From positions 910,686 to 974,685 of the forward strand of contig NZ_CP015249.1 in the NCBI RefSeq assembly GCF_001632775.1: a stretch of 64,000 bases of DNA, in the 5' to 3' direction. A model generated the notes under the pieces. That model was not told the origin of the DNA. It ran no database searches and was given only the letters and a program-made list of their open reading frames with translations. This document shows positions 23,206 to 38,191 of the stretch, in pieces (within the stretch, counting starts at the first letter, position 1; the number at the start of each line of letters is the position of its first letter). Both the position numbers and the translations under genes were made by a program. Source of the DNA: Dokdonella koreensis DS-123 (GTDB lineage Bacteria; Pseudomonadota; Gammaproteobacteria; Xanthomonadales; Rhodanobacteraceae).

Positions 23206-23613
23206 ATGAAAGTCCGGAACAAGGTCGAGGCGGCCCTGATAACCCGTCGCCTGCAGGAGCTGCTCGCCGACCAGAGCAGCATCCTGGCCGCCGTCATCGC
23301 CACCCACGACGGCTTCGAGGTGGCCTGCGCGCAGCGGCAAGGGGCGATTTCGGCGGCACGCGTCGCGGCGATGGCCAGTTCGCTGCAAGCGCTCGGCGGC
23401 TCGATGGTCGCCGAGACCGCCAGTGGCGAGTGCACCGACATCATCATCAACGGCAGCCTCGGCAGGCTGCTGGTGTTCGACATCCCGCTACCCGGTGCCG
23501 GCCTGCTGCTGTGTGTGCAGACCACCAGCGAGGCGGCCCTCGGCTCGATCCTGTTCGCGGTGCGCTCGTGCATGAGCGACATCGAGAACACGCTCGGCGT
23601 CACCGGCCGCTGA
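23206..23613 (+). CDS. Roadblock/LC7 domain protein 1
   Basis: The 135-residue protein is a single roadblock/LC7 domain. An N-terminal helix (about 5–22) is followed by ILAAVIATHDGFEVACAQ and a helix ARVAAMASSLQAL. A strand pair (TDIIINGSLGRLLVFDI, GLLLCVQTT) and the final helix LGSILFAVRSCMSDI complete the fold. Bacterial members such as MglB form dimers that bind or regulate small Ras-like GTPases; no such GTPase gene is present here. GGGGAGG directly upstream fixes the ATG at 23206. It is the first gene of an apparent operon with a second roadblock gene 73 bases on and a kinase-like/phosphoesterase gene behind that. Confidence 0.82.
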   Translation: MKVRNKVEAALITRRLQELLADQSSILAAVIATHDGFEVACAQRQGAISAARVAAMASSLQALGGSMVAETASGECTDIIINGSLGRLLVFDIPLPGAGLLLCVQTTSEAALGSILFAVRSCMSDIENTLGVTGR

Positions 23614-23686
23614 ATGCCGGCGACGCTCCCATCCTTCTCCGGAGATCCGGAGCCTTTTCCCTCCAGCCATCGCAAGAGGACGCTTC

Positions 23687-24094
23687 ATGAGCAAACTCAA
23701 CGACATCTGCAACGACATCGTCAACAACGTCGACAACGGCCTGGGTTGTGCGCTGGTCGACCTGGAATCGGGCCTGCTGCTCGCCGTTGCGCACAAGGTG
23801 CCGTACTTCACCCAGGGCTACCTCGACGCCGTTGCGGCGGCAGCGGTGGACATGTTCCGCGGCCGGACCGTGCGTGCCGTGGAAGACATGCTCGCCTCGC
23901 AGCGCGGCGGCGCCAGCGTGCGGCTGCTCAAGGAAGTGCAGATGACGACCGACAAGACCTATCATTTCATGATGATCCTGCCGAACAAGCCCAACTCGCT
24001 GGTGGTGCTCATCACCGGCCGCAAGGCGAACCTCGGCCTGGGCTGGAGTGCCGTGCGCTCGGCCATCCCGCAGCTCGAGCCGCTGGTGCCGTAG
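23687..24094 (+). CDS. Roadblock/LC7-like protein 2
   Basis: This 135-residue protein has the same outline as its neighbour: GLGCALVDLESGLLLAVAH, a helix LDAVAAAAVDMFRG, strands around YHFMMILPNKPNSLVVLIT, and the closing helix LGLGWSAVRSAIPQL. Sequence identity to protein 1 is low, so the two may form a heterodimer instead of being a recent duplication; this is inference. The ATG at 23687 follows an AGAGGA about 6 bases upstream. The next gene begins 29 bases after the stop. Confidence 0.72.
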   Translation: MSKLNDICNDIVNNVDNGLGCALVDLESGLLLAVAHKVPYFTQGYLDAVAAAAVDMFRGRTVRAVEDMLASQRGGASVRLLKEVQMTTDKTYHFMMILPNKPNSLVVLITGRKANLGLGWSAVRSAIPQLEPLVP

Positions 24095-24123
24095 GCCGGC
24101 ATCGACGCAGGGCGAGCGGCGGC

Positions 24124-25623
24124 ATGGCGTCGATCGACGATCGGCTGCAGCTCGCCGGCACGGTATCCGGCCTCGCGCCGGATACCGCCGAGGTACGGCG
24201 TGCGTTCGGCACGCGCAAGACGATGGAGCGCGACGGCGAGTTCACGGGGCGGCTGTCGACGCAGGTCTATGCCAGCGACACGCTGGTGGTCAAGGTGCGT
24301 TCGGAACATGCCTTCGCGCGCAGCCAGGGCGAGCGCTGGGTCGCCGCGCGCATCGAGCGGGAACGGGCCCTGGGCATCTATCCGCCCGGCAAGGCCTGGT
24401 ATCTGCTTGCGGCGGGAACGCAGGTGCTGGCGGTCAACGCCGCGCCCCGGCTGCTTTCGCTGCGGCACTGGCGTGCATCGGATGCCGCCGCCCTGCAGCG
24501 GACCTGGACCGGTGTGGCCGAACGCTACCTGGATGCACGCGAGCACGGCTACCGGCTCGACGAGGACTTGACGAACTTCGGCGTCGGTGCGGACGGCCGG
24601 GTCTGCTATCTGGACGACGACCTCTACCCGTGGAGCGGCTTCGGCCCGCTGGCCGCCTTCCTCGACCGCACGTTCTGCCGGCGCGGCGATCCTGACGAGG
24701 CGCGTGGCGTCGGCCAGGCGATCGCCATGGCCTGCATCGCCCGTCTCGGCCCGGCAGGAAGCATCGGCCTGCTGCACGAAGTGGAGGCGATCGCGGCCGT
24801 CAACGACGCGCATGCAGGACGCCTGGCGGCACTCGCCGCCGGCTTGCGTCCCCCGCGCGAGAAGCCGGTGGCGGCTCCGCGCCAGCAGGCGCCGATCGGC
24901 CTGCTGGCCGACGTGCACGCCAACCTGCCGGCGTTGCAGCAGGCCTTGTCGGTACTTCGGGCCGCCGGCATCACGCGCTTTCTCGTGCTGGGCGACAGTG
25001 TCGGCTACGGGCCGTTTCCGGCCGAATGCATCGAGTTGCTGGCCGGGCTCGACGCCGTCGTCATCCGTGGCAACCACGACGAGGCGGTGGCCGGCGAAAC
25101 GCTGCCGACGCCGTTCTCGCACGACGCGCGCTGGGTGGTGGAATGGACGCGCAACCGGCTGTCGAAGGCGCATCGCGACTGGCTCGGCGCCTTGCCGCTG
25201 CGCCATGCCGACGGCGACTGGATGGCCGTGCACGGCGCGCCGGGCGATCCGCGCGCGTTCTCGACCTACGTCTACCAGATGACCTCTGTCGAGCAGCTCG
25301 ACTGCCTGCAGGGCCTGCAGCACCGGATGTGCTTCCATGGTCACAGCCACCTGGCCGGCGCGTACCTGCGCGACGGTCGCGGCGACCGCTTCTGCGGGGA
25401 TGGCACGATCGACCTCGCCGGCGTGCGGCAGGCCCTGATCTGCCCCGGTTCGGTCGGGCAGCCGCGTGGCGGTGCAAGCGGCTGCCAGTTCGGCGTGTTC
25501 GACCCCGCCGCCGGCGTGGTTCGCCTGGCGTCGGCCGGCTACCCGACGGAGGACCTGATCGAGGCGATGCGCCGCAATGGATTCCCACCGGGCCTGCTCG
25601 GGCGAATCGCCGATCCGCGGTGA
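24124..25623 (+). CDS. Kinase-like domain fused to metallophosphoesterase
   Basis: The 499-residue protein has two parts. The N-terminal part (about 1–240) has the marks of a degenerate protein-kinase fold: a beta-3-like Lys57 in TLVVKV, a catalytic-loop-like DEDLTNF (Asp146/Asp148, Asn151), and a metal-binding-like YLDDDLY (Asp164–166). The C-terminal part (about 257–480) is a calcineurin-like phosphoesterase with all metal motifs: ADVH (Asp263, His265), GDSVGYGP (Asp291), GNHD (316–319), His370 and GHSH (406–409). It may therefore join a transfer and a hydrolysis activity on one chain; substrate unknown. It is the third gene after two roadblock genes and converges on a RIO-like kinase gene 43 bases away. 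Confidence 0.8.
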   Translation: MASIDDRLQLAGTVSGLAPDTAEVRRAFGTRKTMERDGEFTGRLSTQVYASDTLVVKVRSEHAFARSQGERWVAARIERERALGIYPPGKAWYLLAAGTQVLAVNAAPRLLSLRHWRASDAAALQRTWTGVAERYLDAREHGYRLDEDLTNFGVGADGRVCYLDDDLYPWSGFGPLAAFLDRTFCRRGDPDEARGVGQAIAMACIARLGPAGSIGLLHEVEAIAAVNDAHAGRLAALAAGLRPPREKPVAAPRQQAPIGLLADVHANLPALQQALSVLRAAGITRFLVLGDSVGYGPFPAECIELLAGLDAVVIRGNHDEAVAGETLPTPFSHDARWVVEWTRNRLSKAHRDWLGALPLRHADGDWMAVHGAPGDPRAFSTYVYQMTSVEQLDCLQGLQHRMCFHGHSHLAGAYLRDGRGDRFCGDGTIDLAGVRQALICPGSVGQPRGGASGCQFGVFDPAAGVVRLASAGYPTEDLIEAMRRNGFPPGLLGRIADPR

Positions 25624-25666: not shown

Positions 25667-26323
25667 TCAGCGCGGCCCCGGGTCGCGGACGCGCCCGTTT
25701 CCCTCGTTGTCCCAATAGCCGAACACCTTGCGGGCGATCAGCTTGTAGGCGCGCTTGCCGGTGGCGTGCCAGATGCGGGTGATCCACGAGCGCCGGCGCA
25801 GGACCCGCCGCTCGATCGGGGTCAGCGCGGCCGGGCAGTAGCTGCGCTTGTGCTTGAGCAGATGACGCAGGTCCTCGCGCGCCAGCAGGCGGAACAGGGG
25901 GCCGCGCCGGTGACTGAGCCAGGCGATCTGAAAATCGAGGACGCCGGGCCGGCCGTCGGCCAGCACCAGCCAGTTGGGTTCCTTGGCCAGGTCGTTGTGG
26001 GCGACGCCGCGGGCGCGCACCTGCTTGAGCAGCCGGTGCGCGGCGCGATAGAACGCCGGATCGCGCGGCTGCCCGAGCTGCATCGGCTGGCCGTCGAGGT
26101 AGCTGCGGTCGAGGCAGCCGGTGTCCGCGCCGATCAGCTGGGGAACACCGTCGATGCCGGCCAGCGCGGCCAGCACGCGCGCTTCGCGGGCGGCGGCACG
26201 CTGCGCGAACGGGCGCAGCAGCGGATGCACCGCGCGCGTGTCACGGCGAATCCAGCGCCGGTCGCCGTCGCGGCACAGTTCGATGCGGCCGAGCGCGTCG
26301 GCCTTGAGCAGCGTGGTCTCCAT
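25667..26323 (-). CDS. RIO/lipopolysaccharide-kinase-like protein kinase
   Basis: The 218-residue protein has the catalytic loop VAHNDLAKEPN (about residues 107–117) and the metal-binding GVLDFQIAW, as in RIO-like and LPS-core-kinase-like families. The N-terminal lobe is short. The C-terminal tail is basic (SWITRIWHATGKRAYKLIARK), suggesting contact with membrane or nucleic acid. Such proteins phosphorylate either proteins or lipid A-core sugars; the choice cannot be made from sequence. The ATG at 26323 is the first in a homologous position. It is convergent with the roadblock operon and lies downstream of ispB on the same strand. Confidence 0.75.
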   Translation of the reverse strand: METTLLKADALGRIELCRDGDRRWIRRDTRAVHPLLRPFAQRAAAREARVLAALAGIDGVPQLIGADTGCLDRSYLDGQPMQLGQPRDPAFYRAAHRLLKQVRARGVAHNDLAKEPNWLVLADGRPGVLDFQIAWLSHRRGPLFRLLAREDLRHLLKHKRSYCPAALTPIERRVLRRRSWITRIWHATGKRAYKLIARKVFGYWDNEGNGRVRDPGPR

Positions 26324-27515: not shown

Positions 27516-27980
27516 TCAGGCCGCCAGGGCGCGGGCGACCAGGGTCTCGATCGCCTCGAGATCGGGGATCTGCGCATGGTCGTCGCGGACCAGCACTTCG
27601 GCCAGCACGCCGGTCCGGCGCTCGCGCGCGTCGCCGCTGGGAATCAGCAGATCCTGCGTCACCGTGACCAGCCGCGGGAATCCCTGGGTCAGCAGCGCCA
27701 GGAACGGCATGCGCGCCTGGCCGCCGAGCGCCTTGAGCACCGCCACCTTGGCGTTGCTGTAGCCCTCGGCCTGGCTGGCCTCGGTCAGCATCGAGTAGGA
27801 AAACAGCGGCAGGCGCCATCCGCGCCAGGCCAGGCGTCCGAGCAGCCAGTCCGGCGCGTCGGCGATCCGTTCCGGCGTGGCATAGGTGATGACCTCGGCG
27901 ACGGTCGCGTTCGGCAACAGCACGCGGCCGTTGCTGACCGGGATCATGACGCCGCGGATCTCGCGGGGCAGGTCAGCCAT
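27516..27980 (-). CDS. chpC: CheW-like coupling protein ChpC
   Basis: The 154-residue protein is a CheW-fold protein (MIPVSNGRVLLPNATVAEVITY, then FSYSMLTEAS). It stands at the end of a pil-chp cluster, the position of chpC in Pseudomonas aeruginosa. There it couples receptors to the histidine kinase of the twitching motility pathway. The ATG at 27980 with GAGGAA upstream is used; a TTG at 27998 is the alternative. Similarity is low in the middle, as is usual for ChpC, so the name rests partly on context. It follows chpB by 54 bases. Confidence 0.8.
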   Translation of the reverse strand: MADLPREIRGVMIPVSNGRVLLPNATVAEVITYATPERIADAPDWLLGRLAWRGWRLPLFSYSMLTEASQAEGYSNAKVAVLKALGGQARMPFLALLTQGFPRLVTVTQDLLIPSGDARERRTGVLAEVLVRDDHAQIPDLEAIETLVARALAA

Positions 27981-28034
27981 GGGAGCGGATTTCCTCAATC
28001 GACGGACGGGAGGGATGCAAGGGGGCGGCGGCGG

Positions 28035-29948
28035 TCATTGGGCGGGGGCCGGGTCGGCGTCGCGCAACGCGGCCAGGTGCTCGGCCAGGGCCGTCGGCGA
28101 CCCTTGGAAACCGGCCAGGCCGGCGTCGTTCACGCTGTCGACCATCTCGCTGACGACACAGGTCGCCGGATCCTGTACCCAGATCTCGCCGCCGGCCTCG
28201 GCCAGGGCGCGGCAGCCGGCCACGCCGTCGCCGGACATGCCCGAGAACACCACGGCCAGGGCGTCGGCACCGAAGTCCGCGGCGAGGACCGCCAGCATCT
28301 GGTCGATGGACGGGTGGTGAGAGGTCGGTACGGTCTGCGGCTGGACCAGGACCGTGCCGTCGGCCTTGATCCGCAGATCGCGGTGCGGCGGGACGATGAG
28401 CAGGTCGCCGTGCGCGACGCGCTCGCCGTGGCCCGGCACGCGAATGGTCAGCTCGGTGGCGCGTGCGAGCTGCTGGGCCAGCAGGTCGATGAACTCCTCG
28501 CCCATGTGCTGGACCAGCACGAACAGCGCCGGGTAGTCGCGCGGGATCGCGCCGATCACTTCGCGGATCGCTTCCGGGCCGCCGATCGAGGCGCACAGCG
28601 CGACGACGCGGCGGATGGCGGCGTTCGCGTCGGCCGGCCGCGCCGCCTTGGCGGACAGTGCCAGGGCGTCGGCGTCCAGCCACACCTCGTGGTCGACGCG
28701 CGCGGCCTGCGGGGCGATCGCGTCCTCCATCGGTACCAGTTCCAGCGTCGAGGCTTCTTCGGCCGATTCGGCTTCGGGGGCCGCCGGCGGATAGGGCGAC
28801 GCGGCCGACATGTACTCGGCCGCGGAGATCTTCTCGATGCCGAACGGGGCGGCCGTCGCCACCTCGTCGTCGACCTCGAAGGAGACCAGGTCCCAGTCGG
28901 GCACCGCCGGCAGTTCCGCCGTGTCGGTGCCGGGGACACCGGCTTCGGCCTGGAAGCTGTCCGAGTAGACCGGCTGCGTGTCCAGGTGCGCGAGCGGTGC
29001 CGAATCGGCTTCGGCGTCGTCCTCGTCGAGCACCGGGCGTTCGATCGTGCCGGCGGTCTCGTCGGCCATCGCACGGCTCAGCCAATCGTCGAGGTCGACC
29101 GCTGCGTCCTCCTGTCGCGGCGCGACGGGCGATGCGGGGGTGTCGTCGAAGCCGTCGAGCGTGAAGTCGGCGAGCAGCTGCGCGTCTTCGTCGGAGAATG
29201 GCGATGCCTCGCCGGCGGCGTCGACGGTCCCGGTCTCGGCCGTGGCGTCGTCTTCGTACCCTTCCGGGCTCGGGAAGACGTCCAGCCGTTCCTCTTCGGC
29301 CGCCGCGTCGGCGATCGCCGGCAGGTCCTCGAACAGGAACGGCTCGTCGAGCGCCGAAGCCTCCAGCTGCTGCGGGAGATCGGCTGGCGGCGGCGAAACG
29401 GGCGCTTCGGTCAGGAGAGCCGTGTCGGCGATACCGGACGATGCATCCGTCCAGGCCGTCGGTTCGGGCAGCGGCGCGTCGTCCGGCGCTTCGGCGGGCG
29501 ACGGATCGCCACCAGCTGCGGGAGCGATGTCGATGCGCAGGTCCTGGACCGCGTGTGCGGCCGGGCCGGGCACCGGCTCGGCACCGGCCGGGCGTGGCGG
29601 ATCGGTGGCTTCGGGCGCATCGAGGATCTTGGCAGCCAGATGGCGCACCCAGCGTGCCTGGTCCCAGCCCGAGAGCCGGCTCGAGACATGCCCCTCGTTG
29701 ATGAGGACGCGATACGGCCCGCTGCCGAGCAGTTCGTAGACCCGGTCGAGGTCGCCGTCGATTTCCGAATCGAGGTTGACCACGACCACGCGCGCACCCG
29801 ACTGCTCCAGCGAGCCGCGGTCGATCGCGTGCGTGGTCGATTCGTAGACGATCGGCGTGCCGAGGTCCTGCAGCACGTTGCGCAGGTGGCGTCCCAGCTC
29901 GTCGGTCTGGAACAGCAGGGCAACGGGCACGTGCGCTTCGGTGGCCAT
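28035..29948 (-). CDS. chpB: CheB-type protein-glutamate methylesterase ChpB
   Basis: The 637-residue protein has three parts. First is a receiver-like fold (about 1–110) with an Asp in VVVVNLDSEI but otherwise unusual motifs. Next comes a long acidic, low-complexity linker (about 115–440). Last is a C-terminal methylesterase (about 440–625) with CASIGGPEA (Ser), VLVQHMGEEF (His) and FSGMSGDG (Asp). It should remove methyl groups from the receptor PilJ. It is far longer than ordinary CheB (about 350), all through the linker. The ATG at 29948 overlaps the chpA stop (TGATG), so the two are translationally coupled. No CheR/PilK gene is found to add methyl groups. Confidence 0.9.
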   Translation of the reverse strand: MATEAHVPVALLFQTDELGRHLRNVLQDLGTPIVYESTTHAIDRGSLEQSGARVVVVNLDSEIDGDLDRVYELLGSGPYRVLINEGHVSSRLSGWDQARWVRHLAAKILDAPEATDPPRPAGAEPVPGPAAHAVQDLRIDIAPAAGGDPSPAEAPDDAPLPEPTAWTDASSGIADTALLTEAPVSPPPADLPQQLEASALDEPFLFEDLPAIADAAAEEERLDVFPSPEGYEDDATAETGTVDAAGEASPFSDEDAQLLADFTLDGFDDTPASPVAPRQEDAAVDLDDWLSRAMADETAGTIERPVLDEDDAEADSAPLAHLDTQPVYSDSFQAEAGVPGTDTAELPAVPDWDLVSFEVDDEVATAAPFGIEKISAAEYMSAASPYPPAAPEAESAEEASTLELVPMEDAIAPQAARVDHEVWLDADALALSAKAARPADANAAIRRVVALCASIGGPEAIREVIGAIPRDYPALFVLVQHMGEEFIDLLAQQLARATELTIRVPGHGERVAHGDLLIVPPHRDLRIKADGTVLVQPQTVPTSHHPSIDQMLAVLAADFGADALAVVFSGMSGDGVAGCRALAEAGGEIWVQDPATCVVSEMVDSVNDAGLAGFQGSPTALAEHLAALRDADPAPAQ

Positions 29949-32900
29949 CACGGATCGAGCCTCAGCACCTCGACGACGTTCTGCATCAGGTCGGCCTCCT
30001 GGTACGGCTTGCCGAGGTAGCGCTGCACGCCCAGTTCGAGCGCGCGCTGGCGATGCTTCTCGCCGGTACGCGAGGTGATCATGATGATCGGTACCTCGCG
30101 CAGCCGGGTGTCGTTGCGCATGTAGGTGGCCAGCTCGTAGCCGTCCATGCGCGGCATCTCGATGTCGAGCAGCATGAGGTCGGGGACGCGGTCCTGCAGC
30201 TTCTCGACCGCATCCAGGCCATCCTTCGCGGTGACGACTTCCAGGTTCGCGCGTTCGAGCACGCGCGTGGTGACCTTGCGCATCGTGATCGAATCATCGA
30301 CGACCATGACCAGCGGCTGCTGGCGTACCTCGGCCTGCGCCTCGGGGATCATCAGGTCGGGCAGCACGGTGCTGCCGTCGGCGCCCAGGTCCTCGCGCAG
30401 GGCGACCGCGCGGCGGACCAGCGGCGCCAGGTCCAGGATCATCACGACCGAACCGTCGCCCATGATCGTCGCGCCGAAGATGCCCGGGATCGAGCTGATC
30501 TGCGGTCCGACCGACTTGACGACCACCTCGCGCGAGCCGATGACGGCGTCGACGCGGATCGCGGCGCGCTGGTCGCCGGTGCGCGTCATCAGCAACGGCA
30601 ACTGGGTGTCGTCGATGTTGCGCCCGCCGGGAACGCCCAGCAGGTGCGACAGGTCGTGGAAGTGGAAATCCTCGCCGCCGAAGCCGTAGCGCGTATTGCC
30701 GGCCAGCAGCCGCCCACGCAGCTCCTCGCGGTCGATCCGCACCACGCCTTGCACCGAGGACATCGGGATCGCATAGGTGGCCTCGCCCAGCCGTACCAGG
30801 ATCGCCTGGGTGACCGCGAGCGTGAACGGCAGGCGGATCGTGAAGGCGGTGCCGCGGCCGGCCTGCGATTCGATCGCCAGGGTGCCGCCGAGCTGCTTGA
30901 TCTCGCTGGCGACCACGTCCATGCCGACGCCGCGGCCGGCCAGCTGGGTGATCTGGTCGGTGGTCGAGAAGCCGCTCTCGAGGATGAAGCCCTGCAGGTC
31001 GCGATCGGAGAGCTGCGCGTCGGGCTTGAGCAGGCCGCGCTCGATCGCGCGCCGGCGGATCGCCGGCAGGTCCAGGCCGCGGCCGTCGTCGGACACCTTC
31101 AGGACGACTTCCGTCGCTTCGCGGCTGAGCGCGATGTTGACGGTGCCCTCGGCCGGCTTCGCGGTGGCCTGGCGCTGCTCGGGCGACTCGATGCCGTGCG
31201 CCAGCGCATTGCGCAGCATGTGCTCGAACGGCGCCTTCATGCGCTCGAGCAGGTTGCGGTCCATTTCGCCCTGGGCGCCTTCCACGCGCAGCTGCGCGCG
31301 CTTGCCCAGTTCCTGCGCGGCCTGCCGCAGGGTGCGGCGCAGCGTGGGGACCAGCGAATCGAACGTGACCATGCGCGTGCGCATCAGGCCTTCGTGCAGG
31401 TCCGAGCTGACGCGCGACTGCTGCAACAGCAGCGTTTCGGACTGGCGGGTCAGCTCGTCGAACAGGCCCTGGATCGACACCAGGTCCGACACCGACTCAC
31501 CGAGCGCGCGCGAGTACTGCTGCAGCTGCGAGAAGCGGTCCAGTTCCAGCGGGTCGAAGGTGGCGGCGCCGCTCTCCTCGTTCTCGCGCTGGTAGCGGGC
31601 GATGATCTGCGCCTCGGTCTCGATCTCCAGCTTGCGCAGCTGCTCGCGCAGGCGGTTGACCGTCTGCTCGAACTCGACCAGGTTGAAGCGGAACGAGGCG
31701 ATCTGCTGCTCCAGGCGCGAGCGATAGATCGACACCTCGCCGGCGTAGTTGACCAGCGAGTCGACCAGCTCGGAACGTACGCGGATCATTTCCTGCGGCG
31801 CGCGCATCGTCTCGTCGTCTTCGGCGACGAACGGAGCGGCGGCCGGCGCGGGCACCGGTGCCCGCGGCGCAGCGGGTACCGCCGGTGCCGGGGCGTCCGC
31901 CGTCGCCGGTGCCAGCGGCTGGCCGGCGGCCAGGTGCTCGAAGCGGGCGATCGCATGATGCGGCATCGCGATCGCCTGGCGCTGGCCGACGCGCTGCACC
32001 AGGCCGTGCAGGCGGTCGAAGCCGCGCTCGAAGGATTCGATCGCCGCGCGGTCCATGCGCCGGGTGCCGGCATGGATGGTCTCGAGCAGCGATTCCATCG
32101 CGTGGCTGAGGTCGCCGATCGGCGTCAGGCCGGCCATCCGCGCACCGCCCTTGAGCGTGTGCAGGTCGCGTTGCAGGCCGGAGAGCAGGTCGAACGCCTC
32201 GGGCGTCTCGTGCAGGCGCGCGACCAGCGCGTCGGAATGATCGAGGATGTCGCTGGCTTCCTGGACGAAGATCTCCAGCAGGTCCTCGTCGGTGTCCTCC
32301 AGCGCGAGCGCGCCTTCCGGCTGCGCGTCCTCGGCGATCGCCGGCGTCTCGCGCTCGGCATCCCACCAGGCCCGCCCGGCGTGTGCGGGAGCCGCGTCCG
32401 CGACCGGCTCGGCCGGTGCGACGACGCCGGCAGGCGGTTCCACCGGTTCGATCGCCGCCACCGGATCGGACGCGAAGGCCGGCAGCTCGTCCGGCTGCGG
32501 CTCGATCGGCGGTTCCGCGGGCAGCGACTGCCACGACGGCGCATCGGCCGCGGTGCCGATGTCATCGTGCGCTGCGGTGGCGTCATCGGATGCCGCCGCG
32601 ACCGGCGGTCCGGCCGGCAGGTCGTCGGAGAAGAGGGGGGCTTCGGCCGATTCGGCCAGGAGCTGCTGGATCTCGTCGGCGAGCGTGTCGCCCGTCGCCG
32701 GCCGGTCGCCGGCCTCGTAGGCCGGTGATGGCGGGGTGACGGCGTGTACCTGCGTCGGATCCGCGGCCAGGAACGCTTCCAGCTGCGAGGCGCCGATACC
32801 GGGTGCCTCGGTGGACGCCTCGGCCGACGGGCCGGCGTCCGGGGTGGCCTGATCGCCGAACTGGGCGATCAGGATGTCGGTGAAATCATGCAGTTCCGCG

Positions 32901-35900
32901 GCGTCCCGGGCCGTGTCGGCCTCGGGCTCGGCCTCCCCGGCGCCGTCGTCGGCGTCCGGAACCGTTTCCAGGACGATGTCCTCGTCCGGGGTGGCGGTCG
33001 TCGCGACCTCGGGAGTCACATCGTCGAGGCCGGCATGCAGCAGGTCGAAGCTCGGTTCCGGCAGGGCATCGCGCAGGCGGGCCAGGCGATCGGCGAGCCC
33101 GGCGGTATCGGGCACGGCCAGGTTGCCGACGCCGATCCGCGCGATGACCTCGCGCGTGATGCGGCAGGCCTCGCCGAGCGCCAGGCGGCCTTCCGGCGGC
33201 AGCGGCCGGGCTTCGGCGCCGAGGCGCTTCAGATAACCTTCCAGCGGTCCCAGCACGGCGGTCAGCGCCGGGATGTCTACCATCGCGATCGCGCCGTGAA
33301 GGGTGTGCACCGCGCGCTGCACCGGGTCGTCCGGCGTCGGACGCGGCGGGTCGCCGGCCGCCAGCCAGGTCTCCACCGTCTCCAGGTGGGTATCGGTCTC
33401 GTTGCGCAGGATCTCGTACAGGACCGGGTCGATGGCGGGCGCAGCCGCGGGCGGCGGCGCGGAAGCGGTGGCATCGCCGGAAGCGCCCTGCGCATCCGGT
33501 GTCTCGTCGCGATGCGGCCATACCGCGGGTACGCGGCGGCGCACGGTGCGCTTGACGCTGCGTCGTGTCGTGGCCGGCGGCAACCAGGCTTCCTCGCCGG
33601 CGGCGAGGCGGTCGGCGGTGTCCATGATGCCGGCCAGGTCGACCAGCGCGGCCGCCTCGCCGCGCAGCGCGGCGAGCAGGTCCGGCAGCGTCTGGATCGC
33701 CGTGCTGGCCAGCGCGAACACCGCGCGCGAGGGCTCGATCGAGCGATCGAGCACCCGGTTGAGCATGTTCTCGATCTTCCAGCTGAACTCGCCCAGCGTC
33801 AGTGCGCCGACCAGGCGGCCGGACCCTTTCAGCGTGTGGAACGAGCGCCGGATCGTCTTGACGGCGTCGAGATTGGCTAGGTTGCCGCTCCAGGTCGGAA
33901 GCACCTGCTGCAGGCTGTCGATCTCGTCCTGCACCTCGTCGAGGAAGACGTCGCGGATGTCGTCGTCGATGTCCTCGGAGGCCATGCTCTGGAAGCCGAG
34001 CGCCAGCGGCTCGACGGCCGGAAGCTCTTCCTCGATTTCCTCTTCGATCTCGATCCAGGTCTGCCCGTCCGCGGCAGGTGGGGCGGCGGTGTCGACCAGG
34101 CGCAACCCGGCCATCTCGTGGCGGTGCGGTTCGGGCGTGTGGGTCTCGCCGAGGATCAGGTCGCGCAGGTCGTCGCCGGGCGCGATCTCCACCGCGGTAT
34201 CGAGTTCCAGTGCGACGAAGTCCTCGACCGGTGCCGCACCGTCGGCATGGCCGCTCGCGACCGCCGCATGCGGTTCCGGCGCCGCGCCGGTGGCCGCGGC
34301 ATCCTCGACGCCGGTGCCCGGCGCAGCCGGTTCGTCCGCCGGCGGCGGGACCGGCCAGTAGCCGAGCGAGGCGAGGCTGTCGCGGGTGACGTCGAGGATG
34401 CGCTCGCGGCCGCTGCGCTGCTCGCGGGTCGCCTCCAGGTAGTACTCGATCGAGGCCAGCGCATCGGCCAGCTTGTCCATCTGCTCGACGGTCGGGATCC
34501 GCCGGTGGCGGATCAGCTCGACCTCGACGAAGCGCACGACGCCCGGCATCAGGTCGGAGGCCGCGTCCAGGCCCAGCATGCGCAGGGCGCCGGCGATTTC
34601 CTCGAGCAGGCGCGGGATCAGCTCGACGCGGCTGTGGTCCCAGGGCGACTCGATGAACGCGACGATGTCGTGCTTGGCCTGCTGGATGTTGATCGCCGCC
34701 TCGCGCATCAGCGCGTCGAGGATCTTGCGCACCTCGGCACGCGGCAGCTCCTTGCCCTCGATGCCGTCCTCTTCGCCGGGGCCGCCGGCGCCGAGCCGTT
34801 CGATGTGGTCGTCGAGCGAAGCCTCGACGTAGAGCAGCGCGCCGGCGACGTCCAGCAGGTTGCTCTCGTCGACCGGCCGCTTGCCGCTGGCGATCTCGTC
34901 GATGATCTGGCGCTGCTCGCCGACCACGCGCCGCGGTACGCCGAGGCCGAGCATGCCGAGCGTGTCGCCGACGCGATCGAGGATCTCGGTCTGGGCGCCG
35001 AGTGCGGCCGGGTCGGCATCGCGCGTGCGCAGGAAGATGTCGAGGACCTCCTTGACCCGCAGCAGGTCGTCCTTGATCGCCGCCGAGACGGTATCGAGGA
35101 GGTTGCGGTTGTGCCCGGTCATCGCCCCCTGGGCGTGCTCGACCTCGCGCGCGCTCGGCAGCAGGCCGTCGAGCTGGTAGGTGGTGCGGACCTCCTCGAC
35201 ACGGCTGCCGCGGCCGCCGGAATTGGCGACGTAGTACAGGAGGTTCTGCAGCAGCTCGCGCGGGGCGCGCTCGTGCAGGGCGTCCTCGCCGGCATCGGCG
35301 AACCGCTTGATCTCCAGGTCGATGCGGCCGAACAGCAGCTTCAGCGCGACGCTGACGTCGAGCGCGCGGTCCTGCAGCGCTTCGACGACCGCGGCCGCCA
35401 CCCACCAGAGCCGGCGCGGTTCGACGCGGCTGGACAGCTCGCGCAGGCGGTCGAGCACGCCGAGCAGGCGCTGCAGCGCCGCCGCCTCGTCCTCGCCGCG
35501 GAACCAGCGCAGCAGGCTGGCCTGGTAGGCCAGCCGCAGGCGCGAGGCGGCCTGGCGCTGCTGGTCCAGCGGCAGCGGCTGCATCGCACCGGCAGCGCCG
35601 GCGGGCAGCGCGACCGCCATGTCCGGCGCGAACAGCGCCGACTCGGACAGCAGCTTCTGGCCGCGGCAGGCGCGCAGGTCGTTCAGCAGCGGCAGCAGGA
35701 CGATCGGGATGTCCTTGTGACCGCCCTGCAGGCGTTCCAGGTAGTCCGGCAGCTGCACGACGCCGCGCATCAGCACCGTGTAGGCCTCGTCGCGCTCGCC
35801 GATGGTGCCGTCGAGCAGGGCCTGGACCAGTTGCTCCATCTCCTCCACGACCAGCGCCGCGCCGTACAGCTCGATCATCCGCAGCGTGCCCTGCACCTGG

Positions 35901-36052
35901 TGCAGGTGCCCGCCACAGATGCGCATCAGGCTGCTGTCGGCCGGCGTGTCGACGTAGGCCTCCAGCGCCTCCTGCGCCTGGCGCAGGGTCGAGTCCAGCT
36001 CGTGCTTGATCCAGCCGAGGCTCGTGAATTCGATGTCGTCTTGCAGCTTCAT
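29948..36052 (-). CDS. chpA: Giant hybrid chemosensory histidine kinase ChpA (PilL)
   Basis: The 2034-residue kinase has several phosphotransfer (Hpt) domains: an N-terminal Hpt-like helix bundle (HLHQVQG, near 49), FHTLKGSGR (near 740), VHTLHGAIAM (near 918) and LHTLKGGARM (near 1298). Acidic linkers separate them. Then come the dimerisation helices, the ATPase core (RNALAHGIES near 1617, SDDGRGLD, GRGVGMDVV), a CheW domain, and a C-terminal receiver (MVVDDS near 1917, LLDIEMPRMDGYE). It is the central kinase of the type IV pilus (twitching) pathway and acts at the membrane with PilJ, PilI and ChpC, passing phosphate to PilG and PilH. The length resembles P. aeruginosa ChpA (about 2,470), with fewer Hpt modules. 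Confidence 0.95.
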   Translation of the reverse strand: MKLQDDIEFTSLGWIKHELDSTLRQAQEALEAYVDTPADSSLMRICGGHLHQVQGTLRMIELYGAALVVEEMEQLVQALLDGTIGERDEAYTVLMRGVVQLPDYLERLQGGHKDIPIVLLPLLNDLRACRGQKLLSESALFAPDMAVALPAGAAGAMQPLPLDQQRQAASRLRLAYQASLLRWFRGEDEAAALQRLLGVLDRLRELSSRVEPRRLWWVAAAVVEALQDRALDVSVALKLLFGRIDLEIKRFADAGEDALHERAPRELLQNLLYYVANSGGRGSRVEEVRTTYQLDGLLPSAREVEHAQGAMTGHNRNLLDTVSAAIKDDLLRVKEVLDIFLRTRDADPAALGAQTEILDRVGDTLGMLGLGVPRRVVGEQRQIIDEIASGKRPVDESNLLDVAGALLYVEASLDDHIERLGAGGPGEEDGIEGKELPRAEVRKILDALMREAAINIQQAKHDIVAFIESPWDHSRVELIPRLLEEIAGALRMLGLDAASDLMPGVVRFVEVELIRHRRIPTVEQMDKLADALASIEYYLEATREQRSGRERILDVTRDSLASLGYWPVPPPADEPAAPGTGVEDAAATGAAPEPHAAVASGHADGAAPVEDFVALELDTAVEIAPGDDLRDLILGETHTPEPHRHEMAGLRLVDTAAPPAADGQTWIEIEEEIEEELPAVEPLALGFQSMASEDIDDDIRDVFLDEVQDEIDSLQQVLPTWSGNLANLDAVKTIRRSFHTLKGSGRLVGALTLGEFSWKIENMLNRVLDRSIEPSRAVFALASTAIQTLPDLLAALRGEAAALVDLAGIMDTADRLAAGEEAWLPPATTRRSVKRTVRRRVPAVWPHRDETPDAQGASGDATASAPPPAAAPAIDPVLYEILRNETDTHLETVETWLAAGDPPRPTPDDPVQRAVHTLHGAIAMVDIPALTAVLGPLEGYLKRLGAEARPLPPEGRLALGEACRITREVIARIGVGNLAVPDTAGLADRLARLRDALPEPSFDLLHAGLDDVTPEVATTATPDEDIVLETVPDADDGAGEAEPEADTARDAAELHDFTDILIAQFGDQATPDAGPSAEASTEAPGIGASQLEAFLAADPTQVHAVTPPSPAYEAGDRPATGDTLADEIQQLLAESAEAPLFSDDLPAGPPVAAASDDATAAHDDIGTAADAPSWQSLPAEPPIEPQPDELPAFASDPVAAIEPVEPPAGVVAPAEPVADAAPAHAGRAWWDAERETPAIAEDAQPEGALALEDTDEDLLEIFVQEASDILDHSDALVARLHETPEAFDLLSGLQRDLHTLKGGARMAGLTPIGDLSHAMESLLETIHAGTRRMDRAAIESFERGFDRLHGLVQRVGQRQAIAMPHHAIARFEHLAAGQPLAPATADAPAPAVPAAPRAPVPAPAAAPFVAEDDETMRAPQEMIRVRSELVDSLVNYAGEVSIYRSRLEQQIASFRFNLVEFEQTVNRLREQLRKLEIETEAQIIARYQRENEESGAATFDPLELDRFSQLQQYSRALGESVSDLVSIQGLFDELTRQSETLLLQQSRVSSDLHEGLMRTRMVTFDSLVPTLRRTLRQAAQELGKRAQLRVEGAQGEMDRNLLERMKAPFEHMLRNALAHGIESPEQRQATAKPAEGTVNIALSREATEVVLKVSDDGRGLDLPAIRRRAIERGLLKPDAQLSDRDLQGFILESGFSTTDQITQLAGRGVGMDVVASEIKQLGGTLAIESQAGRGTAFTIRLPFTLAVTQAILVRLGEATYAIPMSSVQGVVRIDREELRGRLLAGNTRYGFGGEDFHFHDLSHLLGVPGGRNIDDTQLPLLMTRTGDQRAAIRVDAVIGSREVVVKSVGPQISSIPGIFGATIMGDGSVVMILDLAPLVRRAVALREDLGADGSTVLPDLMIPEAQAEVRQQPLVMVVDDSITMRKVTTRVLERANLEVVTAKDGLDAVEKLQDRVPDLMLLDIEMPRMDGYELATYMRNDTRLREVPIIMITSRTGEKHRQRALELGVQRYLGKPYQEADLMQNVVEVLRLDP

Positions 36053-36160
36053 CGTTCGTTCTCTAGGCGACGGGCAGGGAAGTCGCCTTCGCTGCGCATG
36101 ATCGATCTTGATGCAATCATCATGCCTCCTTGGGGCTGCCGGCTCTCCCGGCCGCCGGGA

Positions 36161-38191
36161 TCAGCCCGGCAGCTTGAAGTCCGCGACCGACCGCCGCAGG
36201 TCGGCGGCGAGTTCGGCCAGGTTGCCGATCGATTCGGCGGTCTGGCTGGCGCCGACCGAGGTCTGCGTCGTGATTTCCTGAATGACGTTCATCGTGGCCG
36301 AGATGTTGGTCGCCGCCATCGACTGCTGGCGCGCCGCCGTCGAGATGTTCTGGATCAGCTCGGCCAGGTCGTTGGACACCTTCTCGATCTCGCCGAGCGC
36401 CAGGCCCGCGTCCTCGGCCATCCGGGCCCCGGAAACCACCTCGGCGGTGGTCTGCTCCATCGAGCTGACCGCCTCGTTGGTGTCCGACTGAATCGTCTGG
36501 ACCAGGGTCTCGATTCGCTTGGTCGCGCCGGCCGAGCGTTCGGCCAGCCGCTGCACTTCGTCGGCGACCACCGCGAAGCCGCGGCCGGCCTCGCCGGCCG
36601 AAGCCGCCTGGATCGCCGCATTGAGCGCCAGGATATTGGTCTGCTCGGCGATGTCGTTGATCAGTTCCACGATCGAGCCGATCTCCTGCGAGGATTCGCC
36701 CAGGCGCTTGATCCGCTTGGAGGTCTCCTGGATCTGGTCGCGGATCGAGTCCATGCCGTCGATCGTCTGGCGCACCACGGTCACGCCCTTGGTGGCGATC
36801 GCCACCGAGCGCTGGGCGACGTCCGCGCTCTCGGAGGAGTTGCGCGAGACCTCGTCGATCGAGACGGCGATCTCGTTGACCGCGGCCGAGGCCGAGGTGA
36901 TCTGCTGCGCCTGGTGCTCGGCGGCTTCGGCCAGGTGCATCGCCGTGGCCTGGGTTTCCTGGGCTGCGGCGGCCACCTGCACGGCGGTCTCGTTGATCGT
37001 GGTCACCAGCGAGCGCAGCGCCTCGACCGCGAAGTTGACCGAGTCGGCGATCGCGCCGGTGATGTCCTCGGTGACGGTGGCCTTGACGGTCAGGTCGCCT
37101 TCGGCCAGCGAGCCCATCTCGTCGAGCAGGCGCAGGATCGCCTCCTGGTTGCGGTGGTTGAGCTCGGCGGTGACGTGGTAGCGCTTCTGCTGGTCGCGGA
37201 TCAGGCTGAAGCCGAGGACGAGCAGCATCAGCAGCGAGGCCACGCCGGCCACGGCGCCGATGATCGGATTGGGCAGCATCCGCTCGTTCGGCAGCCGCTC
37301 GATCGCGGTGGCGAGCTCCGCGGCGCGCAGCAGCACGTTGCCGCTCTCGTTGGACGCGTCGATCGAGGCCGCCTTGACCTCGTCGATGCCGGGACCGGCG
37401 TCGATGATGCGCTGGACCGGATTGCCGAGCATGCCCCACTGCTCGTTGACGTCGTCGAGGATGGTGCGCGCGTTGGCGTTGTCGAGCGGACGGATCGACA
37501 GCTCCGGCGCGCCGTTGATCAAGCCGGAGAGGACCGTGCCGTAGAGCCGGGCGTCGCGCTGGAAGCCGCCGACCGCCGCCTCGCTCTGACCGCCTGCCAG
37601 GATTTCCTGCAGGCGGCGCATCATGCGGTCGGCCAGCAGCATCTGGCGTGCCGAGATGTACACCTGCGAGGCCGGCGCGTTGCGGTCGGTCAGGATGTTG
37701 ACGACCTCGTTCATGCGCGAGTTCAGCACCGGCATGCGGGTGTTGAAGTCACCGGCGGTGGCGGTCGCGTCGAGCACCAGTTCCTTGCGGCTCAGGATGC
37801 CGGCCGCCTTCGCCGCCAGCACGCGCCAGCCCTCGGTCAGCTTGAGCAGCGCCGCCGATGCGCCTTCCTCGTCCTTGTAGCCGGGCATGCCCGTTTCCGG
37901 GTTGCCGTCGTTGAGGTAGCGCACGCGGGCGTCGATCTCCTTGCGCCGCGCGTCGAGCTGGTTGAACGCGTCGAGGTTGCCACCGGCCGCCTCGGAGGCG
38001 AACTTGGCCAGCTCCTGCGACTTGACCTGGATCTCGGTCGTGTAGGCCACCGCCTGGCGGTCCTGACCGTTCTTGATGTACATCCAGCCGAAGTTGAAGA
38101 TCACGAACGCCAGCAGCAGGCCCAGCAGGACGATCTGCCACCAGTTGCCGCTCCGTTCCTTCGCCGCCAGGGTGCCGCTAGTAGTGCTCAT
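36161..38191 (-). CDS. pilJ: Methyl-accepting chemotaxis receptor PilJ
   Basis: The 676-residue receptor has two membrane segments (about 18–38, IVLLGLLLAFVIFNFGWM; about 305–330, GAVAGVASLLMLLVLGFS). They enclose a periplasmic helical sensor of about 260 residues. The cytoplasmic signalling helix contains EQTNILALNAAIQAASAGEAGRGFAVVADEVQ (cited in part). In the Pil-Chp system PilJ senses type IV pilus state or surface contact. It sits between pilI (215 bases upstream) and chpA (108 bases downstream). Both gaps are larger than others in the cluster and could hold extra promoters, which I could not identify. Confidence 0.95.
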   Translation of the reverse strand: MSTTSGTLAAKERSGNWWQIVLLGLLLAFVIFNFGWMYIKNGQDRQAVAYTTEIQVKSQELAKFASEAAGGNLDAFNQLDARRKEIDARVRYLNDGNPETGMPGYKDEEGASAALLKLTEGWRVLAAKAAGILSRKELVLDATATAGDFNTRMPVLNSRMNEVVNILTDRNAPASQVYISARQMLLADRMMRRLQEILAGGQSEAAVGGFQRDARLYGTVLSGLINGAPELSIRPLDNANARTILDDVNEQWGMLGNPVQRIIDAGPGIDEVKAASIDASNESGNVLLRAAELATAIERLPNERMLPNPIIGAVAGVASLLMLLVLGFSLIRDQQKRYHVTAELNHRNQEAILRLLDEMGSLAEGDLTVKATVTEDITGAIADSVNFAVEALRSLVTTINETAVQVAAAAQETQATAMHLAEAAEHQAQQITSASAAVNEIAVSIDEVSRNSSESADVAQRSVAIATKGVTVVRQTIDGMDSIRDQIQETSKRIKRLGESSQEIGSIVELINDIAEQTNILALNAAIQAASAGEAGRGFAVVADEVQRLAERSAGATKRIETLVQTIQSDTNEAVSSMEQTTAEVVSGARMAEDAGLALGEIEKVSNDLAELIQNISTAARQQSMAATNISATMNVIQEITTQTSVGASQTAESIGNLAELAADLRRSVADFKLPG

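Follow-up and report, generated by a model that had tools for sequence, protein, structure and literature searches.

A divergent roadblock protein and a kinase-like/metallophosphoesterase fusion as a probable accessory arm of an MglA-type GTPase switch in Dokdonella koreensis

The window considered here, a stretch of 64,000 nucleotides from Dokdonella koreensis DS-123 (NZ_CP015249.1, positions 910,686 to 974,685), contains three tightly spaced plus-strand genes, Rob1, Rob2 and KMPE (Table 1), which in the reading frames of the window are separated by gaps of 73 bases (Rob1-Rob2) and 29 bases (Rob2-KMPE). An earlier note, made from the sequence alone, described them as two roadblock-fold proteins followed by a fusion of a kinase-like domain with a metallophosphoesterase, and this description holds: coordinates and gaps agree, Rob1 is recognized by Pfam and Rob2 by its predicted structure, and the third gene joins a kinase-like domain to an intact metallophosphoesterase. 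Rob2 and KMPE belong together across genomes, and probably form an accessory arm of a Ras-like GTPase switch, the other components of which are Rob1, a small GTPase and a protein named here C4.

Table 1. Position and make-up of the three genes and of the two domains of KMPE in the window.
Feature	Coordinates	Strand	Description
Rob1	23206..23613	+	135 aa, MglB-like roadblock protein; Pfam PF03259
Rob2	23687..24094	+	135 aa, divergent roadblock protein; AlphaFold fold
KMPE (whole gene)	24124..25623	+	kinase-like domain + metallophosphoesterase fusion
KMPE N-terminal kinase-like domain	24124..24861	+	invariant K57, E80, D146, N151, D164, D165; no Pfam family
KMPE C-terminal metallophosphoesterase	24880..25623	+	Pfam match, conserved metal-site residues

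Rob1 is a member of the roadblock/LC7 family, matching the Robl_LC7 profile with 30.5 bits at a Pfam cut-off of 23. Its residues 35-36 form an Asp-Gly pair, which is present in all 62 Rob1 matches above 60 bits (a crude test that includes duplicate loci) and has been reported for the MglBs of MglA Groups 2-5 (PMC4316618; this and the other papers are cited here from excerpts of their text). Rob1 is likely the GTPase-activating protein (GAP), or a partner, of a GTPase to which it is not linked; the GAP role is putative.

Rob2 matches no Pfam family at E-values up to 1, and none of 39 aligned Rob2 members gives a roadblock match in Pfam. The best PDB matches of its AlphaFold model (mean pLDDT 91.5) in Foldseek are a Streptomyces roadblock protein and Myxococcus xanthus MglB (E 2-3e-8, TM ~0.73). 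Judged by this predicted fold Rob2 is a roadblock/LC7 protein, although its sequence escapes the profile, and it represents a roadblock family missed by Pfam. Its members share the conserved motifs VPYFTQ..AVAAAAVDMFRG and are the most conserved part of the gene set. In 37 complete loci, which were themselves found through Rob2 motifs, mean pairwise identity is 66% for Rob2, 47% for the GTPase, 37% for KMPE, 31% for Rob1 and 21% for C4. When the loci are chosen by KMPE (n=21), Rob2 reaches 67% and KMPE 44%; 15 of these loci have Rob1, Rob2, KMPE and the GTPase all present, with identities of 66% (Rob2), 63% (GTPase), 48% (Rob1) and 43% (KMPE).

The N-terminal half of KMPE (residues 1-246 in the window protein) has no Pfam family and no PDB sequence match, and in 40 members this half gives only scattered weak and unrelated matches in Pfam. 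Across the 40 aligned sequences, which include the window protein and are 29-40% identical to it over the full length, K57, E80, D146, N151, D164 and D165 are invariant. The spacing of D146-N151-D164 is the same as that of D166-N171-D184 in PKA, and the order of secondary structure fits, in our reading, a kinase fold. A Foldseek search of a viral library with KMPE returned proteins named APH-like, RIO-like, ChoK-like, Ser/Thr and other kinases (E 1e-6 to 1e-3); these matches, printed without aligned ranges, would fall on the N-terminal half. Among PDB folds, the 50 matches listed are phosphoesterases and phosphatases only, because the phosphoesterase half dominates the match. KMPE therefore appears to add a kinase-like domain without a Pfam family, with the residue order of protein kinases (K, E, D, N, D) and, probably, a matching fold.

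The C-terminal half is a calcineurin-like metallophosphoesterase by both Pfam match and metal-site residues. Residues 257-457 match Metallophos/Metallophos_2, the closest solved structure is 3rqz (34% identity, E 3.7e-21), and D263, H265, D291, N317, H318, H370 and H409 are invariant, with H407 present in 39 of the 40 sequences. From the conserved kinase-like and metal-site residues, both halves are predicted to be active. Alternatively, the N-terminal domain could be a pseudokinase or a ligand-binding domain attached to an active phosphoesterase, as its lack of Pfam and PDB sequence relatives might suggest; the invariance of K, E, D, N and D in sequences as divergent as these makes this very unlikely.

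The bond between Rob2 and KMPE is apparent from their distribution. Among 369 genomes of the class, KMPE is found in 14, strong Rob2 (>180 bits) in 17 and the GTPase in 68 (E up to 0.001), and all 14 KMPE genomes also hold strong Rob2 and the GTPase; the KMPE profile search of the class had no positive control, and the same profile found this genome in the phylum search. The association of Rob2 with KMPE has a Fisher p of 9e-23, or of 2e-11 when the comparison is limited to GTPase-positive genomes and leaves this one out, in both cases uncorrected for relatedness. The 13 other KMPE genomes of the class are spread over 10 families, and in three of them, all from one family, Rob2 and KMPE co-occur on different contigs. 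Rob2 lies in the fetched stretch of 10 of the 13 other full-length KMPE genes, accompanied in nine by the small GTPase, C4 and Rob1; the tenth stretch (L040) ends at a contig end. A search with the KMPE N-terminal domain gave matches in 15 of the 369 genomes, including G230, whose match was rejected: it is weak, covers 42 residues, is unconfirmed by the profile and comes from a stretch (L043) with none of the five families.

In the phylum, 31 other genomes have KMPE, of which 30 were fetched and one, a fragment (G679), was left out. Strong Rob2 is present in 22 of the 30 loci and a GTPase above 100 bits in 20, and these matches are not independent, because 29 of the 32 matching genomes belong to one family (f217). 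Among 98 other genomes of the genus, family and order none has strong Rob2, weak matches of 21-67 bits occur in 11, and 12 match KMPE through stretches that begin no earlier than residue 191, almost all of them in the phosphoesterase, so that the presence of both genes at these levels is sporadic.

The surroundings of Rob2 were surveyed by scanning a species-genome collection with two Rob2 peptide motifs, whose conservation in the loci obtained stems partly from this selection. The scan gave 108 relatives, of which 80 were kept and are counted here, with KMPE taken as present where it is in pieces (L064 and L106). C4, the GTPase, Rob1 and KMPE all lie within 5 kb of Rob2 in 38 loci. Smaller sets consist of GTPase, Rob1 and KMPE (7 loci), KMPE alone (8), Rob1 and KMPE (2), Rob1 alone (3), C4, GTPase and Rob1 (1), and GTPase and Rob1 (1). 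KMPE is thus near Rob2 in 55 of the 80 loci, and the neighbourhood is no chance arrangement; it is downstream in 51 of the 55, and is convergent in 28 and codirectional in 23. The small GTPase is within 5 kb in 47 of the 80, and all 47 also have Rob1 within this distance. Where 4 kb or more is available on either side of Rob2 (54 loci), KMPE is present in 38 and the GTPase in 36. The order C4, GTPase, Rob1, Rob2 is kept on one strand in 40 of the 41 loci where C4, GTPase and Rob1 are within 5 kb by matched domain coordinates (39 by whole reading frames), L104 being different.

The hosts of Rob2 include Marinobacter, Competibacter, Thiotrichaceae, Methylococcales, Solimonas and Mariprofundus, and Rob1, Rob2 and KMPE recur as a unit in Gammaproteobacteria and Zetaproteobacteria. 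Misbinning may explain some metagenome-assembled genomes (MAGs) titled Nitrospira, Phycisphaerales and Microbacteriaceae in which the set is found wholly or for the most part. A Lysobacterales MAG (L051:6893-13453) carries C4-GTPase-Rob1-Rob2-KMPE followed by a second C4-GTPase-Rob1. In four loci of Thiotrichaceae, Beggiatoa and Thiomargarita (L055, L056, L057, L061), Rob2 stands beside a second Rob2 or a piece of one, with the usual partners absent within 5 kb.

The statement of the earlier note that no MglA-type GTPase is present is true of the window, but not of the genome, where a single GTPase match is located at C1:886693-887211. The C4 gene (L045:9218-10402(-)) shares one base with the start of this GTPase gene, and the pair sits 47 kb from Rob1, between genes read from their frames as xerD and dxs. 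A second C4-like gene, at 3182 kb (L050:7798-9030 (+)), has no GTPase match beside it. The small GTPases of two relatives (L031, L032) score above the Pfam cut-off for ATP_bind_1, one of them also for Ras, and one of the two gives weak PDB matches to a Rab-family protein and to MglA (E 0.002 and 0.009). In the G3 motif, GTPGQ is found in 54 of 59 GTPase matches above 120 bits (duplicate loci included), and has been reported for MglA Groups 2-5 (PMC4316618).

The congeners allow part of the history of the set to be followed. In G001, C4 and the GTPase are at the same place as in this genome, and a 74% identical orthologue of Rob1 is likewise in place, between tonB and a kinase-like gene, with both Rob2 and KMPE absent; in G003, G005 and G009, tonB adjoins the kinase-like gene and Rob1, Rob2 and KMPE are all missing. 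Within the genus, the three genes are therefore not kept together, an outcome that the earlier note had listed as counting against its reading. In trees, the window Rob2 groups with that of L051 (support 0.85), Rob1 and KMPE with those of L052 (0.73 and 0.63), and the unlinked GTPase with that of L052 (0.96); both L051 and L052, the latter from a MAG titled Microbacteriaceae, hold the genes contiguously. The simplest history is that a once contiguous set was split in this genus, followed by the joint loss of Rob2 and KMPE in G001; their joint gain in this genome is the alternative. The orientations would allow a single 47-kb inversion to restore the operon, and any such inversion would be older than the split from G001, because the GTPase-dxs and TonB-Rob1 neighbourhoods are both common to G001. 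The congeneric pair G000/G001, with and without Rob2 and KMPE on the same core, shows that a genome can carry the core and lack the arm.

These data bear on the proposal of the earlier note that the roadblock pair and the fusion enzyme are a signalling module different from MglAB. The linkage of an enzyme to roadblock proteins is plausible in view of the recurring unit, but independence from a Ras-like GTPase does not agree with the 47 loci that have one or with the C4-GTPase pair 47 kb away. The note had allowed that an MglA-like GTPase could turn out to be the constant partner, and this is largely the case for Rob1 (the same 47 loci), but not for Rob2, in view of the eight loci with Rob2 and KMPE alone and of three actinobacterial loci with SpoIIE, described below. 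A module free of any GTPase, in which a Rob1-Rob2 heterodimer regulates KMPE by itself and the distant GTPase is unrelated, draws on the distance of 47 kb to the only GTPase match of the genome and on those eight loci without GTPase, Rob1 or C4 within 5 kb, six of which have at least 5 kb of upstream DNA. It is nonetheless unlikely, as Rob1 accompanies the GTPase in every one of the 47 loci, the unlinked GTPase is sister to that of the contiguous set L052, the bearer of the nearest Rob1 and KMPE (with modest supports), and G001 keeps Rob1 and the C4-GTPase pair without Rob2 and KMPE. As the leading explanation it was set aside on account of the GTPase in 47 of 80 loci and of the genome's own C4-GTPase pair.

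The arrangement we consider probable is a Ras-like GTPase switch, made up of C4, the MglA-type GTPase and Rob1, plus an accessory arm of Rob2 and KMPE, Rob2 connecting the kinase/phosphatase to the switch. Gene content and order, co-occurrence, predicted folds, conserved catalytic residues and the joint absence of Rob2 and KMPE in the congener are consistent with a system of five parts: C4, the small MglA-type GTPase, the MglB/GAP-like Rob1, the second roadblock protein Rob2, and KMPE, split in this genome into C4-GTPase and Rob1-Rob2-KMPE. The GTPase and Rob1 would form the switch, with Rob1 as the presumed GAP. Rob2 would bind KMPE, and possibly also Rob1 as a heterodimer, thereby tying the kinase/phosphatase activity to the state of the switch. 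The target that KMPE would phosphorylate and dephosphorylate might be C4, one of the roadblock proteins or a protein from outside the set.

A different division of labor would have both roadblock proteins act on the GTPase only, in a 1:2 MglA:MglB system, leaving KMPE to a separate job such as Ap4A-type nucleotide hydrolysis. Two MglBs may be present in the Group 3 systems described so far (PMC4316618), the phosphoesterase half of KMPE resembles SapH, titled Ap4A hydrolase (E 3e-13), KMPE and Rob2 are convergent in 28 of 55 loci, and three genomes have Rob2 and the GTPase with no KMPE found. This division is nevertheless improbable, given that Rob2, whether linked or unlinked, is present in every one of the 14 KMPE genomes of the class, that Rob2 and KMPE are jointly absent in G001, and that Rob2 relatives precede a SpoIIE phosphatase in stretches where no GTPase was found.

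Several observations weigh against the coupling of KMPE to the switch through Rob2. None of the partners lies within 5 kb in 20 of the 80 Rob2 loci, nor in 13 of the 54 with at least 4 kb on both sides. The three genomes with strong Rob2 and GTPase and no KMPE found are G274 (72% complete), G335 and G457, and eight of the 30 phylum KMPE loci are without strong Rob2 in the fetched stretches, to which that search was limited. The GTPase of this genome, like that of G001, reads GLPGQ, not the GTPGQ usual in the group. What speaks for kinase activity of KMPE is fold and residues, and the kinase-like domain has no similarity to the family of its kinase-like neighbour in the window (hhalign probability 0.2), so that a link between the two was dropped. 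Tree supports are modest: the KMPE clade that adds L051 to the window and L052 has a support of 0.0, which becomes 0.91 once L087 is added. Finally, the GTPase was not found in the fetched stretches of the actinobacterial Rob2 loci.

The last-named loci (L127:9001-11513, L129:9001-11415 and L130:2630-4182) stand under actinobacterial titles and encode Rob2 relatives 56-59% identical to the window Rob2. L127 is from a named strain, Leucobacter massiliensis, and L129 and L130 are from MAGs. In all three the Rob2 relative is directly followed by a SpoIIE phosphatase, and in L127 (by Pfam) and L129 (by similarity to L127) STAS and HATPase genes come next; the stretch of L130 breaks off within the phosphatase. 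L052 and L096 belong to the same MAG as L130, and L096 is without a SpoIIE-type neighbour. No paper linking roadblock, SpoIIE and STAS as its topic was found in the open-access literature. A wider and rather tentative idea, which we hold to be possible but somewhat doubtful, is that Rob2 serves different phospho-switch enzymes as a portable roadblock adaptor, in Proteobacteria a kinase/phosphatase fusion and in Actinobacteria a SpoIIE-STAS-HATPase set. The proteobacterial form would then couple a Ras-like GTPase to reversible protein phosphorylation, as a bacterial counterpart of Ragulator-type scaffolding.

The neighbours of Rob1 and KMPE in the window are a TonB gene and a kinase-like gene. 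The latter encodes a protein of 218 aa, in a minus-strand frame ending at 25667, with HNDLAKEPN and DFQ motifs and no Pfam match; it adjoins the TonB gene in three congeners and Rob1 in G001. Type IV pilus-type chemosensory genes (CheW, CheB, CheA with Hpt domains and a PilJ-type receptor) adjoin the module at 27516-38191 (-) of the window, and CheB and CheW of this set are also present in G001. A link to these Pil-Chp-type genes was rejected, as the adjacency is not conserved: among 110 related loci, 12 match the C-terminal part of CheA or PilJ, at least one of these (L055) being a double receiver protein only, and none matches CheB, CheW or TonB. Phage or plasmid origin was likewise discarded: neither the 50,697 phage records nor the 72,556 plasmid records searched contain a Rob2 match (E 1e-3), and nine IMG/VR pattern matches are not relatives.

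Among known systems, the set is closest to the Group 3 MglA systems of beta- and gamma-Proteobacteria. In these, MglA is accompanied by one or two MglBs and by a conserved protein whose function is unknown and whose predicted fold is receiver-like and winged-helix (Wuichet and Sogaard-Andersen, 2014; PMC4316618). The order C4-GTPase-Rob1-Rob2 of the relatives fits this published core, and C4, by its position beside the GTPase, would correspond to the conserved protein beside MglA, an identification made by description and not by sequence comparison; if it holds, C4 would also be a receiver-like and winged-helix protein. Differences are the split by 47 kb, where Group 3 has MglB within four genes of MglA, the GLPGQ in place of GTPGQ, the lack of a Pfam roadblock match in Rob2, and KMPE, which goes unmentioned in the excerpted description of Group 3 (PMC4316618). 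We therefore class the set with the Group 3 MglA-type systems, as a variant that has Rob2-KMPE as an extra arm; in this genome it falls short of strict membership on the coupling. In Snodgrassella, gut colonisation has been linked to a Group 3 set that includes an orphan mglB (PMC11112851).

Other systems share single aspects with the set. In M. xanthus, a Ras-like GTPase and its GAP MglB are joined by a further protein, RomY, that stimulates MglB (PMC9481161); that MglA is a Group 1 member (PMC4316618), unlike the Group 3-like core here, and the excerpts describe no kinase-phosphatase fusion such as KMPE (PMC9481161). The actinobacterial conservons CvnA-D also combine a GTPase, a roadblock protein and a phospho-signalling enzyme in one gene set, but the enzyme is a histidine kinase (PMC4316618, PMC13343842), in contrast to the kinase-like/metallophosphoesterase fusion and the C4 protein here. 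Beside the roadblock genes of the window, where conservons would have the histidine kinase CvnA and CvnC, lie the TonB gene and the kinase-like gene. The fold of Rob2 matches the MP1/p14 structures 1veu and 3cpt with E of about 4e-6 to 1e-5. The roadblock scaffold MP1/p14 of Ragulator has a role in MEK/ERK scaffolding, and the likeness, kinases and small GTPases brought together by proteins of the roadblock fold, is an analogy of working only. SpoIIE phosphatase, STAS and HATPase form what we take to be a partner-switching set; such a set is headed by the Rob2 relative in Leucobacter massiliensis and in a Promicromonosporaceae MAG, and is not found next to Rob2 in the window.

In the open-access literature, with many matches judged by title or by the start of the abstract, no paper was found that joins KMPE to an MglA/roadblock system. 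GTPases that match the profile are present in 68 of the 369 genomes of the class, and for Group 3 systems the output is only predicted in the excerpted published account (PMC4316618). Against this background KMPE, co-occurring with one roadblock protein, is a concrete and testable candidate for the output of a branch of Group 3 systems.

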